A stretch of DNA of 39,538 bases from an uncultured Opitutia bacterium (GTDB lineage: Bacteria; Verrucomicrobiota; Verrucomicrobiia; Opitutales; Puniceicoccaceae): contig CAJXLM010000024.1 of assembly GCA_913056175.1 (NCBI GenBank), positions 1 through 39,538 on the forward strand, in the 5' to 3' direction. Positions within the stretch are counted from its first letter, which is position 1; every line of letters begins with the position of its first letter. Below, one piece after another: positions 64 through 39,538 of this stretch. The position numbers and the translations under genes are program-made. Below the pieces are notes generated by a model. The model worked only from the letters and a program-made list of their open reading frames with translations. It made no database searches and had not been told where the DNA came from.

Positions 64-760
64 CGGCTTCGGGGGTCTCGGGTTTCCTGGGTCTTCCGGT
101 GGTTCCGGGGGTTCGGGGTGTCTTGAGGGATCCGGGGTATTGCGGGCTCGCGGGCAGGGGAGCGCCTGCGGCGCGGCAGGGGAGTGGGCGAAGCCCACGG
201 CAGGAGAGCGGGCGGGGGCCCGCAGCATGGGGGTGGGTTCGGGATGTTTCGGAGAATTGAACCCAAGGTGCGCCTTTTGGCGTTTCTCTGCCGGGCCTCC
301 CGGCAGATCCCGGCCTCGCTTTCCAGCGCTTTCCTGCTGTGCCTCACGGCACATCCCTGCCGCGCCTTTCGGCGCTTCCCTGCGTTTCGGCTCGGGGTGG
401 TCGCGCGCGGGGCGGCTGGGCGTCGGGGGTGGCTTTGGGGGTAGGAGGTGGCTTTGGGGGTAGGGGCGTTGCGGGCTTGCGGGCAGGGGAACGCCTGCGG
501 CGTGGAGGGGGAGTGGGCGGAGCCCATGGCAGGGGAGCGGGCGGGGGCCCACGGCAGAGGGTGGGTTCGGGATGTTTCGGAGAATTGAATCCAAGGTGCG
601 CCTTTTGGCGCTTCTCTGCGCCTTGGTGCGGGGAGGCGGGGTGTTTCGGTGCTACTGGGAGTGCGGGGTGTCTTTGAGGTTCGGCGCGTTACGGGCTTGC
701 GGGTAGGGGAACGCCTGCGGCGTGGCCGGGGAGGGGGTGGGGGCCATGGCGTGGGGGGCT
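64..760 (+). repeat. Left array of short hairpin-linker repeats (REP/BIME-like)
   Basis: No gene is credible here. From about 139 the DNA consists of 22-23 bp units, each a small hairpin plus a conserved linker close to GGCAGGGGA. Clear stems are GCGCC/GGCGC (162-174), GTGGGC/GCCCAC (184-198) and GCGGGC/GCCCGC (208-223). A central element follows (235-264, GGTTC...GAACC type). Then come units in opposite orientation with linker TCCCTGC: 289-305, 317-328, 338-353 and 362-375. A second partial copy starts near 467 (ACGCC/GGCGT 491-503; GTGGGC/GCCCAT 513-527) and a third near 686 (711-723). Between them is a 19 bp direct repeat (428-446 and 447-465). Positions 64-138 are homologous to the matching stretch beside the right RAYT. 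I see nothing recognisable from 761 to 924. Confidence 0.85.
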
Positions 761-3831: not shown

Positions 3832-4770
3832 CTATTCTTCCCTTTTCTCCAATTCCGACTCGGTCAGTCCGTACCCGAGCAGCCGCCTTCGCCAGCCGCG
3901 GGCAGCCCAGAGAGAGGTGCCCACTTCCTCGATGGGAACGGCCTGGCGCACGCCGCTCCAGCGGGCCTGGTGGCGGCGGACAAAGGCCTCCGAGCCGGCG
4001 ATCACCCGGCGGGCGAGAGCTGCCTCCAACTCCCGCGGGGGACATCGGTTGCCCTTGATCTGCGCGATTTGGCTCGTCGGTGCCAGCAGCCAACTGAGGG
4101 CTTCCTCGACCGCCCGGGCCGTCCACGCGCGCAACTCCCGTCGGAGCGAGAAACAACGGATTCCCCGCCAGCCCCCCGGCCCCGCCGTCGACCAACGGTA
4201 GTCATAGGGATCAAAGACTTCCCCCGCCCGCACGGGCGCGCTTTGCACCGAGGCCCGGTACCAACCGACGGTGTTCGGCTGCGGCTCGAGGAGCACGCTC
4301 TGGAAACGGTCGGTCCAGAGCGTGCCCCGCCGGTTGTGACGGCGGTTGTACCAACTGGTGAAGCGCTGCTTGATCGTCTTCATCAGCTGCGAGATGTCGT
4401 GCATGCGGGCGAGCAGCACCTGCCGGGCTTCCCGAGCGTCCGCGCCCCCCTTGGCCAACACTTGTTCCAGCTGGTCCGCGTCGTAGCCGAGGCAGCCTAC
4501 CGCACCCCCGTAGAGGGCCCGGTAGCGCGCCACCAGCTCCGCCGCCCCGGTATCCGCCCGCTCCTTCGGGTCGGCCACCACGACCAGCTGGATTCCCGTC
4601 GGCAGCACCGCGCATTCCAGCACATCCACCCCCGTAAACTCCGAGGCTCGCACCGCCAGCCGCATCAGGAACTCCCGCTCCTCCGCCGAAAAACGGATCA
4701 TCCCCCCCAGTGTTTCCGTCCGCAAATAGTAGTACCCTTCTCCCTTGAGTTTGTAACGTGCCTTCCTCAT
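3832..4770 (-). CDS. RAYT-like Y1 transposase, HUH motif degenerated
   Basis: The product has 312 residues from ATG 4770 (MRKARYKL..., the typical RAYT start); an upstream GTG/ATG at 4833 is less likely. RAYTs are single-copy Y1 nucleases thought to mobilise REP hairpins. The helix with the nucleophile is well kept: QRFTSWYNRRHNRRGTLW, Tyr about 141. The nearby DRFQSVLLE and PVRAG also match the family. The metal-binding HUH motif, normally like MSNHFHLL, reads LPTGIQLVV at about residues 57-64, so both histidines are gone. The usual YH near residue 14 is YYYL. The frame is intact, so this looks like a retained but probably non-cleaving DNA-binding relative, or a recently inactivated copy. 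Its C-terminus resembles the partial RAYTs at both window ends. Confidence 0.85.
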   Translation of the reverse strand: MRKARYKLKGEGYYYLRTETLGGMIRFSAEEREFLMRLAVRASEFTGVDVLECAVLPTGIQLVVVADPKERADTGAAELVARYRALYGGAVGCLGYDADQLEQVLAKGGADAREARQVLLARMHDISQLMKTIKQRFTSWYNRRHNRRGTLWTDRFQSVLLEPQPNTVGWYRASVQSAPVRAGEVFDPYDYRWSTAGPGGWRGIRCFSLRRELRAWTARAVEEALSWLLAPTSQIAQIKGNRCPPRELEAALARRVIAGSEAFVRRHQARWSGVRQAVPIEEVGTSLWAARGWRRRLLGYGLTESELEKREE

Positions 4771-5326
4771 GCCCCCATCCCACTCGACTTCAACTCCTCG
4801 GTCAAGCCCATATTTGGACTGTCCCTGTACCATCGACCTATGGATCGAAAAGGGTGAAGGGGGGACGGGGGGTGGGGTGGTGGAACGGGGGCGGTGAGGG
4901 TGCGTGGGGAGTGCTGTGGGGATCTCCGGGGGGGTTCTCCGCTTGGGGGATTCCTTGGTTCACCTCTCTGGCGAGGTAGCTCTGCTTTCAGGGGAGGTAG
5001 CTCTGATTCGTGGGGAAGTGGTTCTGGTCCCTGGTGGGTGGCTCTGATTTGCGGGGAGGCGGTCTGGCTCCGTTGGGGGGTGGGTTCTTTTTGGTGGGTT
5101 ATGTGCTTTCGGTGGAGCCTTGTTTTCGGGGGTCCAGGGGAAGGCGGGGGGTCCGGGGAAGGCGGAGTGGGGAGTGGGGTTGGGGAGCCTTTTGGTCCTT
5201 TGGGGGGAGGGTGGTGAGTCGTGGGGGGTGGGGGTTCTCTCTCGGCGGTGCTCCCGGTGCCGAGGTTCTTCGTTGGGCGGGCCGGCTGGGGTGCCTTGGG
5301 TGGGAGCACCGGGGCTGGGCGGGCAC
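4771..5326. repeat. G-rich intergenic region with five 21 bp tandem repeats
   Basis: No gene is credible in these 556 bp. Five consecutive 21 bp degenerate repeats run from 4971 to 5075 (4971-4991, 4992-5012, 5013-5033, 5034-5054, 5055-5075), with core GGGAGGTAGCTCTGATT. A shorter direct repeat of about 18 bp (GGGGTCC-GGGGAAGGCGG type) occurs near 5128-5164. A 9 bp inverted repeat, GGTGCTCCC/GGGAGCACC, lies at 5247-5255 and 5302-5310, just beyond the methyltransferase stop. The plus strand is very G-rich with many runs of four or more G, so quadruplex formation is possible. The region lies upstream of the complete RAYT. Confidence 0.7.
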
Positions 5327-37936: not shown

Positions 37937-38407
37937 TGGCTTCCTGGGTTGGTGATCGTGGAAGAGAAACGATCCTCGGTGGAACCGCTCGGAAAGGACT
38001 GCTACCGTCGGAGCATTTTCTCCCCAATGGCAAGGGAACTTTTTCGCCGTCACGCCGCAGCCCCCGCCCCTGTGGGCCTCAAGAAGGATTATTTTTTGTT
38101 CCTCGCCGATTTTCGTCGCTCATCGGGTGGGGCGCGAAGAGCTCGGAAGGCGAGCACGGTCGGGCGGGGAAACAATCAGTCGACGGTCGACCAGACCGCC
38201 GTGCAGCCGTGGCGGAAGAACCTCTCGGGGGGCCGGAATCCATTGCACCGGGGAAAGCGTCCGGTCCGAGTAACCGTTCCCCATCCAGGCACGCCCCAGT
38301 CTCACTCTCGCCCGAATCCCAATCGAAAACTTCTCTCCAAGAAATTAACCCCCCCCCTCCCCACCGCGCCCAACCCACCCAAGTTCCCTCCAAAGCCGCA
38401 AGCGATC
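37937..38407. other. Intergenic region before the right array
   Basis: No gene is seen. The first 100 bp must hold the promoter of the AspA-like gene, but I cannot pick out a -35/-10 pair. Notable stretches are an AT-rich run near 38085-38100, paired GTCGAC sites near 38178-38191 and a run of C near 38347-38360. The hairpin array begins at about 38408. Confidence 0.5.
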
Positions 38408-39349
38408 GGCAGGGAAGCATCGAAGACGGCGACATGGATATGCCGAACGCACAGCACGGAAGCGCCGAAAGGCGTGGCATGGATGTGCCGGGGGCGCAGC
38501 AGGAAACGACGGAAAGCATAGCATCGGCGTCATTCCCCAAAAAACCCGAGCCCATCCCCTCCCGCGCCACTACCCCGAGCCAAAGCGCAGAAGAGCGCCA
38601 GAGGCGTAGCATGGCTCAGTTCCCGGAAAAAACCCGAGCCCACTCCCTGCTGCGGGCCCCCGCCCGCTCGCCCGCCGTGGCCCCCACCGCCCTGCCGCGC
38701 CCCGGGCGTTCCCCTGCCCGCAAGCCCGCGACGCCCCGACCCCCAAGGTTACCCCGCCGCTCGGCGCCACCACCCCAAAAGGAGCGTAGGGGAGCGGCGA
38801 AAGGAGCGGCCCAGCATTGCCGAAGGCACAAAGCATGGGAACGCAGCAGAGATAGGCCGCAGGCCCAGAAGAGAAGCGTCAGAAGAGGCAGTATGATTCA
38901 AATCCCCGAAAAAACCCGAATCCACCCCATGCCGCGGGCATAGCTCGCTCCCCCGCCCTGGGCTCCACCCACCCCCCTGCCGCGCCGCAGGCGCTCCCAT
39001 GGCCGCAACGCACCGCCTGCCCACGCCACTACTCCGAGCGAAGCGCAAGGAAGCGCCGAATGGCGCGGCATGGATGTGCCGGGGGCACAGCATGGAAGCG
39101 CTGGAAAGCGCGGCAGTGATCTACCGGAAGGCCCGACAGAAAAACGCCGGAAGGCGCAGCCTGGTTGAATTCCCCTAAAAACCTGAACCCATCCCATGCC
39201 GCAGGTCCCCGCCCGCTCCCCTGCCGTGGTCCCCGCCCACTCCCATGCCGCGCCACAGGCGCTCCTATGCCCACGGGCCCGCAACGCCACGGATGCCCTC
39301 AGACACCCCAACCTCCGGGACGCCCAGGACCCCCGGGACGCCGAAGCTG
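38408..39349 (-). repeat. Right array of short hairpin-linker repeats (REP/BIME-like), inverted copy of the left array
   Basis: Read on the minus strand, this follows a RAYT stop exactly as the left array does, and it matches the left array over hundreds of bases (for example GGGCTTGCGGGCAGGGGAAC). Units of 22-23 bp read on the plus strand include GCGCC-GAAA-GGCGT (38462-38475), TGTGCC/GGCGCA (38484-38498), GCGCC/GGCGC (39053-39066), TGTGCC/GGCACA (39075-39089) and GCGCT/AGCGC (39098-39111). They are separated by GGCATGGA-type linkers. At least three composite copies occur (near 38408-38740, 38820-39030, 39050-39300). Each has a central GGTTC...GAACC type stem with a T-rich side. Confidence 0.85.
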
Positions 39350-39538
39350 TTACTTGAGCATCGTCCGCCGCCACGGCTGGGCGCCCCAAAGGGGGATGTC
39401 GACCTCCTCGACGGGGACCGCTCGCGGTGCTCCCGCCCAGCGGGCGCGGTGGCGGCGTACGTAGGCCTCGGAGCCGGCGATCACCCGTCGGGCCATCGCC
39501 TCCTCGATCTCCCGGGGCGGAGCCCGGCCGCCCCGGAC
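39350..39538 (-). CDS. RAYT (REP-associated tyrosine transposase), C-terminal fragment
   Basis: A minus-strand frame enters from the window end and encodes 62 residues before TAA. It contains RRVIAGSEAYVRRHRARW and ends PWRRTMLK. It matches the C-terminal part of the complete RAYT at 3832-4770 (RRVIAGSEAFVRRHQARW). Its last 20 residues are identical to the fragment at 1-63. The nuclease domain is outside the window, so activity cannot be judged. The hairpin array begins within about 100 bp of the stop, as on the left side. This suggests the RAYT 3' end and its array behave as one cassette. Confidence 0.85.
   Translation of the reverse strand, partial: VRGGRAPPREIEEAMARRVIAGSEAYVRRHRARWAGAPRAVPVEEVDIPLWGAQPWRRTMLK

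Follow-up and report, generated by a model that had tools for sequence, protein, structure and literature searches.

Ordered arrays of REP-like hairpin units behind a multicopy RAYT-like gene family in an uncultured Opitutia bacterium

Introduction

In REPtrons, known from E. coli (yafM), Stenotrophomonas and Marinomonas, a gene of the RAYT fold adjoins tagged palindromes in both orientations. According to the RAYT literature this gene, tnpA-REP, is usually single-copy and immobile and keeps its HuH motif and Tyr, both of which are conserved in all aligned RAYTs (PMC2817692, PMC3733652). Tyr-to-Phe mutants of RAYT show no cleavage (PMC8266576), and one third of the early RAYTs adjoin BIMEs (PMC2817692). 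The Class 3 TnpA-Y1 genes of Solibacter and other bacteria exist in several related versions in one genome, have atypical structures lacking GTAG on their flanks, and have been termed possible intermediates between ISs and REPtrons (PMC6006769). The genome described here presents the opposite of the usual RAYT, and it sits poorly with the textbook view of RAYT as one stationary enzyme that cuts DNA and feeds scattered repeats.

Results

The window analyzed here is the whole contig C24 (CAJXLM010000024.1, 39,538 nucleotides) of the uncultured Opitutia bacterium assembly GCA_913056175.1. The host genome (2.61 Mb in 84 contigs, 96% complete) was covered in full by BLAST, in the form of a fragmented assembly. 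The relatives are placed by GTDB in the Opitutales (Verrucomicrobiota), and the RAYT sequences of one family member, G001, match those of 'Opitutia bacterium UBA4506'.

The window opens on the plus strand with the last 20 codons (VEEVDIPLWGAQPWRRTMLK and the stop, 1-63) of a RAYT-like gene cut by the contig start. Its identity as an array-linked, HuH-less copy was set from other copies, the 20 terminal codons alone lying inside the window, and its C-terminus matches about 18 other contig ends. A G/T-rich spacer (64-152) leads from the stop to the first array block (139-385), which begins about 90 bp past the stop and consists of three REP-like forward units, a central stem and five inverted units, all given on the plus strand. 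The forward linkers, read directly, are GGCAGGGGA (153-161 and 175-183) and GGCAGGAGA (199-207), and they precede the hairpins at 162-174, 184-198 and 208-223, respectively. The central stem TGGGTTC/GAACCCA spans 234-265. The inverted hairpins follow at 271-282, 287-307, 317-328, 338-353 and 362-375; the second is the strongest and is the site at which the block subtypes A and B are distinguished. The linkers after the inverted hairpins, including those at 283-292 and 376-383, are of the TCCCTGCC type, the reverse complement of the forward type. Each block is a mirror, with forward units, central stem and inverted units.

A sequence-only reading of this stretch had described a single composite cassette of seven hairpins with a fixed phasing of 22-23 bp. 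The composite, ordered block is real, both by direct reading and by folding (0 of 200 shuffles as good; z-scores of -6.7 for RNA and -6.9 for DNA). The supposed four inverted hairpins are five, that at 271-282 having been missed; the linker spacing is 22-25 bp genome-wide. Neither is the cassette single, for the block recurs on the plus strand at 438-621 (also given as about 463-620), truncated past the first inverted unit, and at 652-751 (also given as about 670-750), where the first units only are left. Most single units fold well in isolation; the first forward and the third inverted hairpin, folded singly, were no better than their own shuffles. The linker-hairpin-linker grammar was found in 46 runs at arrays and in 24 elsewhere (two of these belong to the array on contig C42), compared with 5-11 in a Markov-shuffled genome.

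BLAST and a profile built from 34 full blocks revealed about 28 array clusters in the genome. A cluster contains between one and five blocks, each roughly 300 bp long, which lie head-to-tail in one orientation only. The upstream side is readable in 20 clusters, and in 19 of them the C-terminus of the same RAYT family stands directly upstream; the sole exception, C36:598-1395 (minus strand), is situated some 500 bp upstream of another RAYT copy. The distance from the RAYT stop to the first linker is 58-98 bp in the 12 plus-strand copies measured. Because the tie to RAYT genes is this close and the block order is constant and never inverted, the attachment to the gene's 3' end that had been read from the window alone is borne out, and a genome with units mostly off RAYT genes and in no order is not what we found. 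Five clusters are cut by a contig edge, which falls within the spacer in four of them and within the array in one, and three are interrupted by other IS elements. An IS ending in CGGCATAGCTC lies inside arrays, or has left remnants there, at C9, C27, C39, C48 and C75.

At its far end the window carries a second array of four full or partial blocks (38398-39322, minus strand) behind the C-terminal region of another array-linked RAYT-like gene (39350-39538, minus strand), which is cut by the contig end. Arrays are absent beside other RAYT paralogues, including the complete HuH-less one in the window (3832-4833, minus strand, 333 aa); on C39, where a paralogue and an array-bearing element stand tail-to-tail, about 20 bp separate the paralogue's end from the far end of the opposing array. 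The 24 5' ends of the array-linked family are all at contig edges. The near-identity of the copies makes the assembly break within the gene, and consequently none of them is assembled at full length. The 5' ends have a common flank from near CCNGCTNGCCGGAATATAATGACAGGCTTT and nothing in common further upstream; besides the array no common 3' end motif was found, and the array ends are ragged. In the common flank, TATAAT is followed by GACAGG and by a G-rich leader (GGGTGGGTGGTGTTGGGGTGGGG) before the start codon; TATAAT and the leader could possibly represent a promoter -10 and a G-quadruplex motif.

The genome holds a second multicopy RAYT-like family without an array, with about five 5' ends (C3, C13, C22, C25, C34) and five 3' ends (C14, C17, C53, C62, C70). 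Its boundaries, TCTGTCCCCCAC at the start and CTATGTCCCTTTTA at the end, show TGTCCC in direct orientation at both ends. RAYT-free clusters of small hairpins were noted at C8:32340, at 12.1-12.6, 15.8 and 27.1-27.4 kb of C11 and at C35:30126-30431; they have the same linker type (GCAGGGGA) but other, varied stems (GGCCTGCGGCC, GTGCTTCGCAC). A DNA search of 52 genomes in all retrieved the array block from none of the 51 relatives, and no array was seen by eye beside the relatives' RAYTs in the few loci inspected. Plasmids (distant blastn) and viral contigs (one exact pattern) yielded no arrays.

The intact relatives from the same family and order read NHFHL at the HuH position and YIDLNP or YIDLNA at the Tyr position, whereas the array-linked family has TGIQL or RGIQL and SVQTAP. 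No catalytic Tyr of the Y---N type is kept, YIDLN(P/A) having given way to SVQTAP and variants. The HuH position is readable in six to seven array-linked copies and the Tyr position in one (C29), and some copies could be intact because the middle of the multicopy gene was never assembled. Other paralogues read REVQL, REVCL or REIQL at the HuH position, and the visible catalytic residues are also gone from the paralogues on C19, C39, C40, C9, C55 and C1 and from the second family. As judged from these alignments, the encoded protein has lost the residues needed to nick DNA. In about 80 relatives the catalytic residues are intact in nearly all. A first scan of GTDB by name retrieved no HuH-less relatives, a second showed that 80 loci encode intact RAYTs, frameshifts and minor variants aside, and among 373 genomes of the order no relative scored above intact RAYTs.

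The loss of HuH and Tyr is monophyletic (support 100/99). The sister C6:62787, on a long branch, keeps HuH and has Gln at the Tyr position, which suggests that Tyr was lost first. The HuH-less lineage has remained under constraint, has split into at least eight lineages and has attained about two dozen near-identical array-linked copies. Between HuH-less paralogues, with array-linked fragments against singletons included, dN/dS is 0.26-0.38, and in the first 52 codons of the multicopy gene 14 of the 20 variable codons are synonymous only. Two RAYT-like genes, C7:33676 and C8:37828, retain HSH and YVDLNP and lie far from any of these arrays. Behind the latter, C8:38850-39700 contains repeats GCAGACACCCA / TGGGTGTCTGTG in both orientations, plausibly its terminal repeats. 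In the Opitutales relatives G003, G024 and G047 the RAYT matches, mostly intact and diversified, number at least 39, 41 and 19, respectively. The literature emphasizes single copies, but in this order RAYT expansion seems to be frequent.

For the window paralogue (3832-4833), the AlphaFold model has a core pLDDT of about 95, and its best PDB match is 4er8 (Z 14.2, 156 residues), which holds the E. coli RAYT in complex with a REP hairpin. Fold and sequence similarity place the protein with the RAYT/Y1 group, and its identity to intact RAYTs is about 40%. The NF047646 match (E 8e-5) and PF01797 fall under their cut-offs, and PF01797 had no match in the genome at E <= 0.001. By sequence, a PDB match was absent with the HuH-less alignment and weak with the mixed alignment. 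The model predicts that the hairpin-binding RAYT/Y1 fold is retained in the encoded protein.

The mean identity between blocks is 77%. A recent local expansion of the array was ruled out, because blocks are equally alike within clusters (76.6%) and between them (77.2%, p = 0.71), and no fixed order of the subtypes A and B was found between clusters, the order being mixed. The hairpin pairs are conserved, yet one-sided changes that break them are common. Across 34 blocks compensatory change did not exceed that in shuffles, and an excess of C-to-T at paired and unpaired columns alike accounts for the G.U excess. A structured 3' transcript end, as the earlier reading suggested, is therefore unsupported: hairpin covariation is no higher than chance, and an RNA-structure function argued from covariation was rejected on the basis of the shuffles together with the strand mutation bias behind the G.U excess. 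The array has no Rfam match. Repeated DNA that undergoes exchange between loci accounts for the pattern better than a conserved RNA structure does.

C/A-rich 5' flanks were seen at the HuH-less RAYT loci examined. In the array-linked family the stretch 100-200 bp ahead of the start codon has a GC skew of -0.61, and 83% of the copies have a skew of -0.5 or lower, compared with 0.7% of 907 other genes (skew -0.03). The C/A-rich 5' tract was not seen at the two catalytic RAYT genes. Downstream, the strand is G/T-rich across the array and about 100-200 bp further, and the second family has G-rich flanks right behind its own 3' end. Among 107 extreme-skew tracts in the approximately 85% of the genome scanned, 52 are in the 6% near RAYTs or arrays and 31 further ones within 1.5 kb of contig ends. 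Intact RAYTs in other genomes have the same skew signs, weakly (-0.13 and +0.08). The 5' flank of the window paralogue (4771-5170) is C/A-rich on the coding strand past its first 100 bp, with a GC skew of -0.39 to -0.59, and at about 4834-5170 (coding strand minus) it has the same tract as is seen upstream of HuH-less RAYTs. The skew switch centered on each HuH-less locus examined looks origin-like. As the source of the flank skew, an insertion preference and strand-biased mutation proceeding outward from the locus would each suffice.

Discussion

We hypothesize, with roughly even confidence, that the locus makes up the 3' portion of a multicopy REPtron-like element, built of a RAYT-like gene and, behind it, one to five blocks of REP-like hairpin units in tandem. 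The protein would be a hairpin binder that does not cleave, and the array beside each copy would serve as its binding platform, probably bound while single-stranded during replication or transcription. Something other than the present protein may have spread the copies; the candidates are a lost active ancestor, a trans-acting Y1 enzyme of the C7/C8 type, or recombination. The coding part could have been homogenized later by purifying selection and perhaps gene conversion. Several observations count against this explanation, namely the solitary REP-like clusters with other stems, the solo array at C36:598-1395, the C7 and C8 genes with their catalytic residues, and the lack of covariation above chance. 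A broader proposal, that the family lost its nuclease once and then, as a constrained hairpin binder, diversified and multiplied with its own tandem binding array at loci that center origin-like skew switches, is put forward only tentatively. The sequence-only reading is partly supported overall: its idea of the array as a RAYT substrate in the usual sense is unsupported, since the HuH and Tyr residues required for cleavage are missing from the array-linked RAYT, and the predicted binding of the array by the RAYT-like protein is plausible.

The arrays could instead be BIME-like leftovers of a once-active RAYT, with both gene and array now functionless. Divergence to about 77% mean identity, ragged ends and insertions of other ISs speak for such decaying REPtrons, and REP clusters adjoining RAYT genes are well known (PMC6006769, PMC8266576). 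Nevertheless, we consider decay rather unlikely: dN/dS is 0.26-0.38 after active-site loss, several divergent ORFs are intact at about 300 aa, and about 24 copies have a nearly identical coding core. At the other extreme, a transposase that is still active by a non-canonical active site and uses the array hairpins as its ends would agree with the many copies, their common 5' boundary and unrelated flanks, and with the aromatic-Arg-Ala motif (Y/F-R-A/E) conserved beside the old Tyr position. We consider it very improbable, as both HuH histidines, Tyr and Asn are gone, no substitute is conserved across the paralogues, and the Tyr position is variously S, A, L, F or H.

Strong folding (z -6.7), the constant location of the array 3' of the gene on the coding strand, and a coding-strand C-to-T bias that suits transcription-linked deamination would be compatible with an RNA element, i.e., a structured 3' end with a role in stabilizing or terminating the RAYT transcript, or as an RNA ligand of the protein. 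Covariation within the range of shuffles, the missing Rfam match and the common one-sided, pair-breaking changes leave little probability for it. It is hardly credible that the array is a target, a pre-existing hairpin cluster into which elements inserted repeatedly: other ISs are present inside some arrays (C9, C27, C48), and IS elements elsewhere target REPs (PMC2817692), but the arrays occur on the 3' side only, 58-98 bp past the stop with a fixed spacer in 12 copies, and are almost never solo.

If the broader proposal holds, the family would represent a new kind of multicopy repeat system, with a RAYT that binds instead of cutting. Confirmation of the constrained, array-linked lineage without an active site would provide a natural system for studying roles of RAYTs besides cutting, and a view of how REP blocks evolve once the enzyme cannot move them.

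Comparison with known systems places the locus near several of them. An active TnpA-IS200 of the IS200/IS605 type with short subterminal hairpins is not what is seen here, the active site being absent from the array-linked family. With the TIRYTs (TIRtrons; subclass 2.1 TnpA-Y1, terminal inverted repeats GGGGWSAS) the family shares a long C-terminal extension, and GWSAS is fitted by the 5' motif GACAGG in the array-linked family and by GGGACAGG in a paralogue. However, a TIRYT has an inverted repeat at the 3' end where an array stands here, the catalytic residues are gone, and the motif is confined to the 5' side, with no enrichment of an inverted copy after the arrays. The Class 3 TnpA-Y1 systems are similar in having several related genes per genome and flanking structures without GTAG, but they keep HuH and Y----Q, both of which the present family lacks.

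As in a REPtron, tagged palindromes lie in both orientations beside the gene. A REPtron, however, usually has one stationary copy and REPs scattered genome-wide, whereas here there are about 24 copies, with repeats nearly confined to the 3' side of the gene: no array was found upstream of the 24 5' ends, the distant solo array on C36 excepted, and whole-genome BLAST located blocks nearly only at RAYT 3' ends or contig ends. The REPtron tag is GTAG (GT[AG]G at the hairpin foot) and the linker here is GGCAGGGGA / GCATGGGA; REPtron RAYTs keep HuH and Tyr, and the present family has lost both. Because several REPtron features fail, we regard the protein as a RAYT derivative and not as a functional RAYT. 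The array resembles a REPIN or BIME in its inverted pairs of tagged hairpins about a center, and differs from them in that 3+5 units make up each block, in a fixed order, head-to-tail in tandem and attached to the gene.
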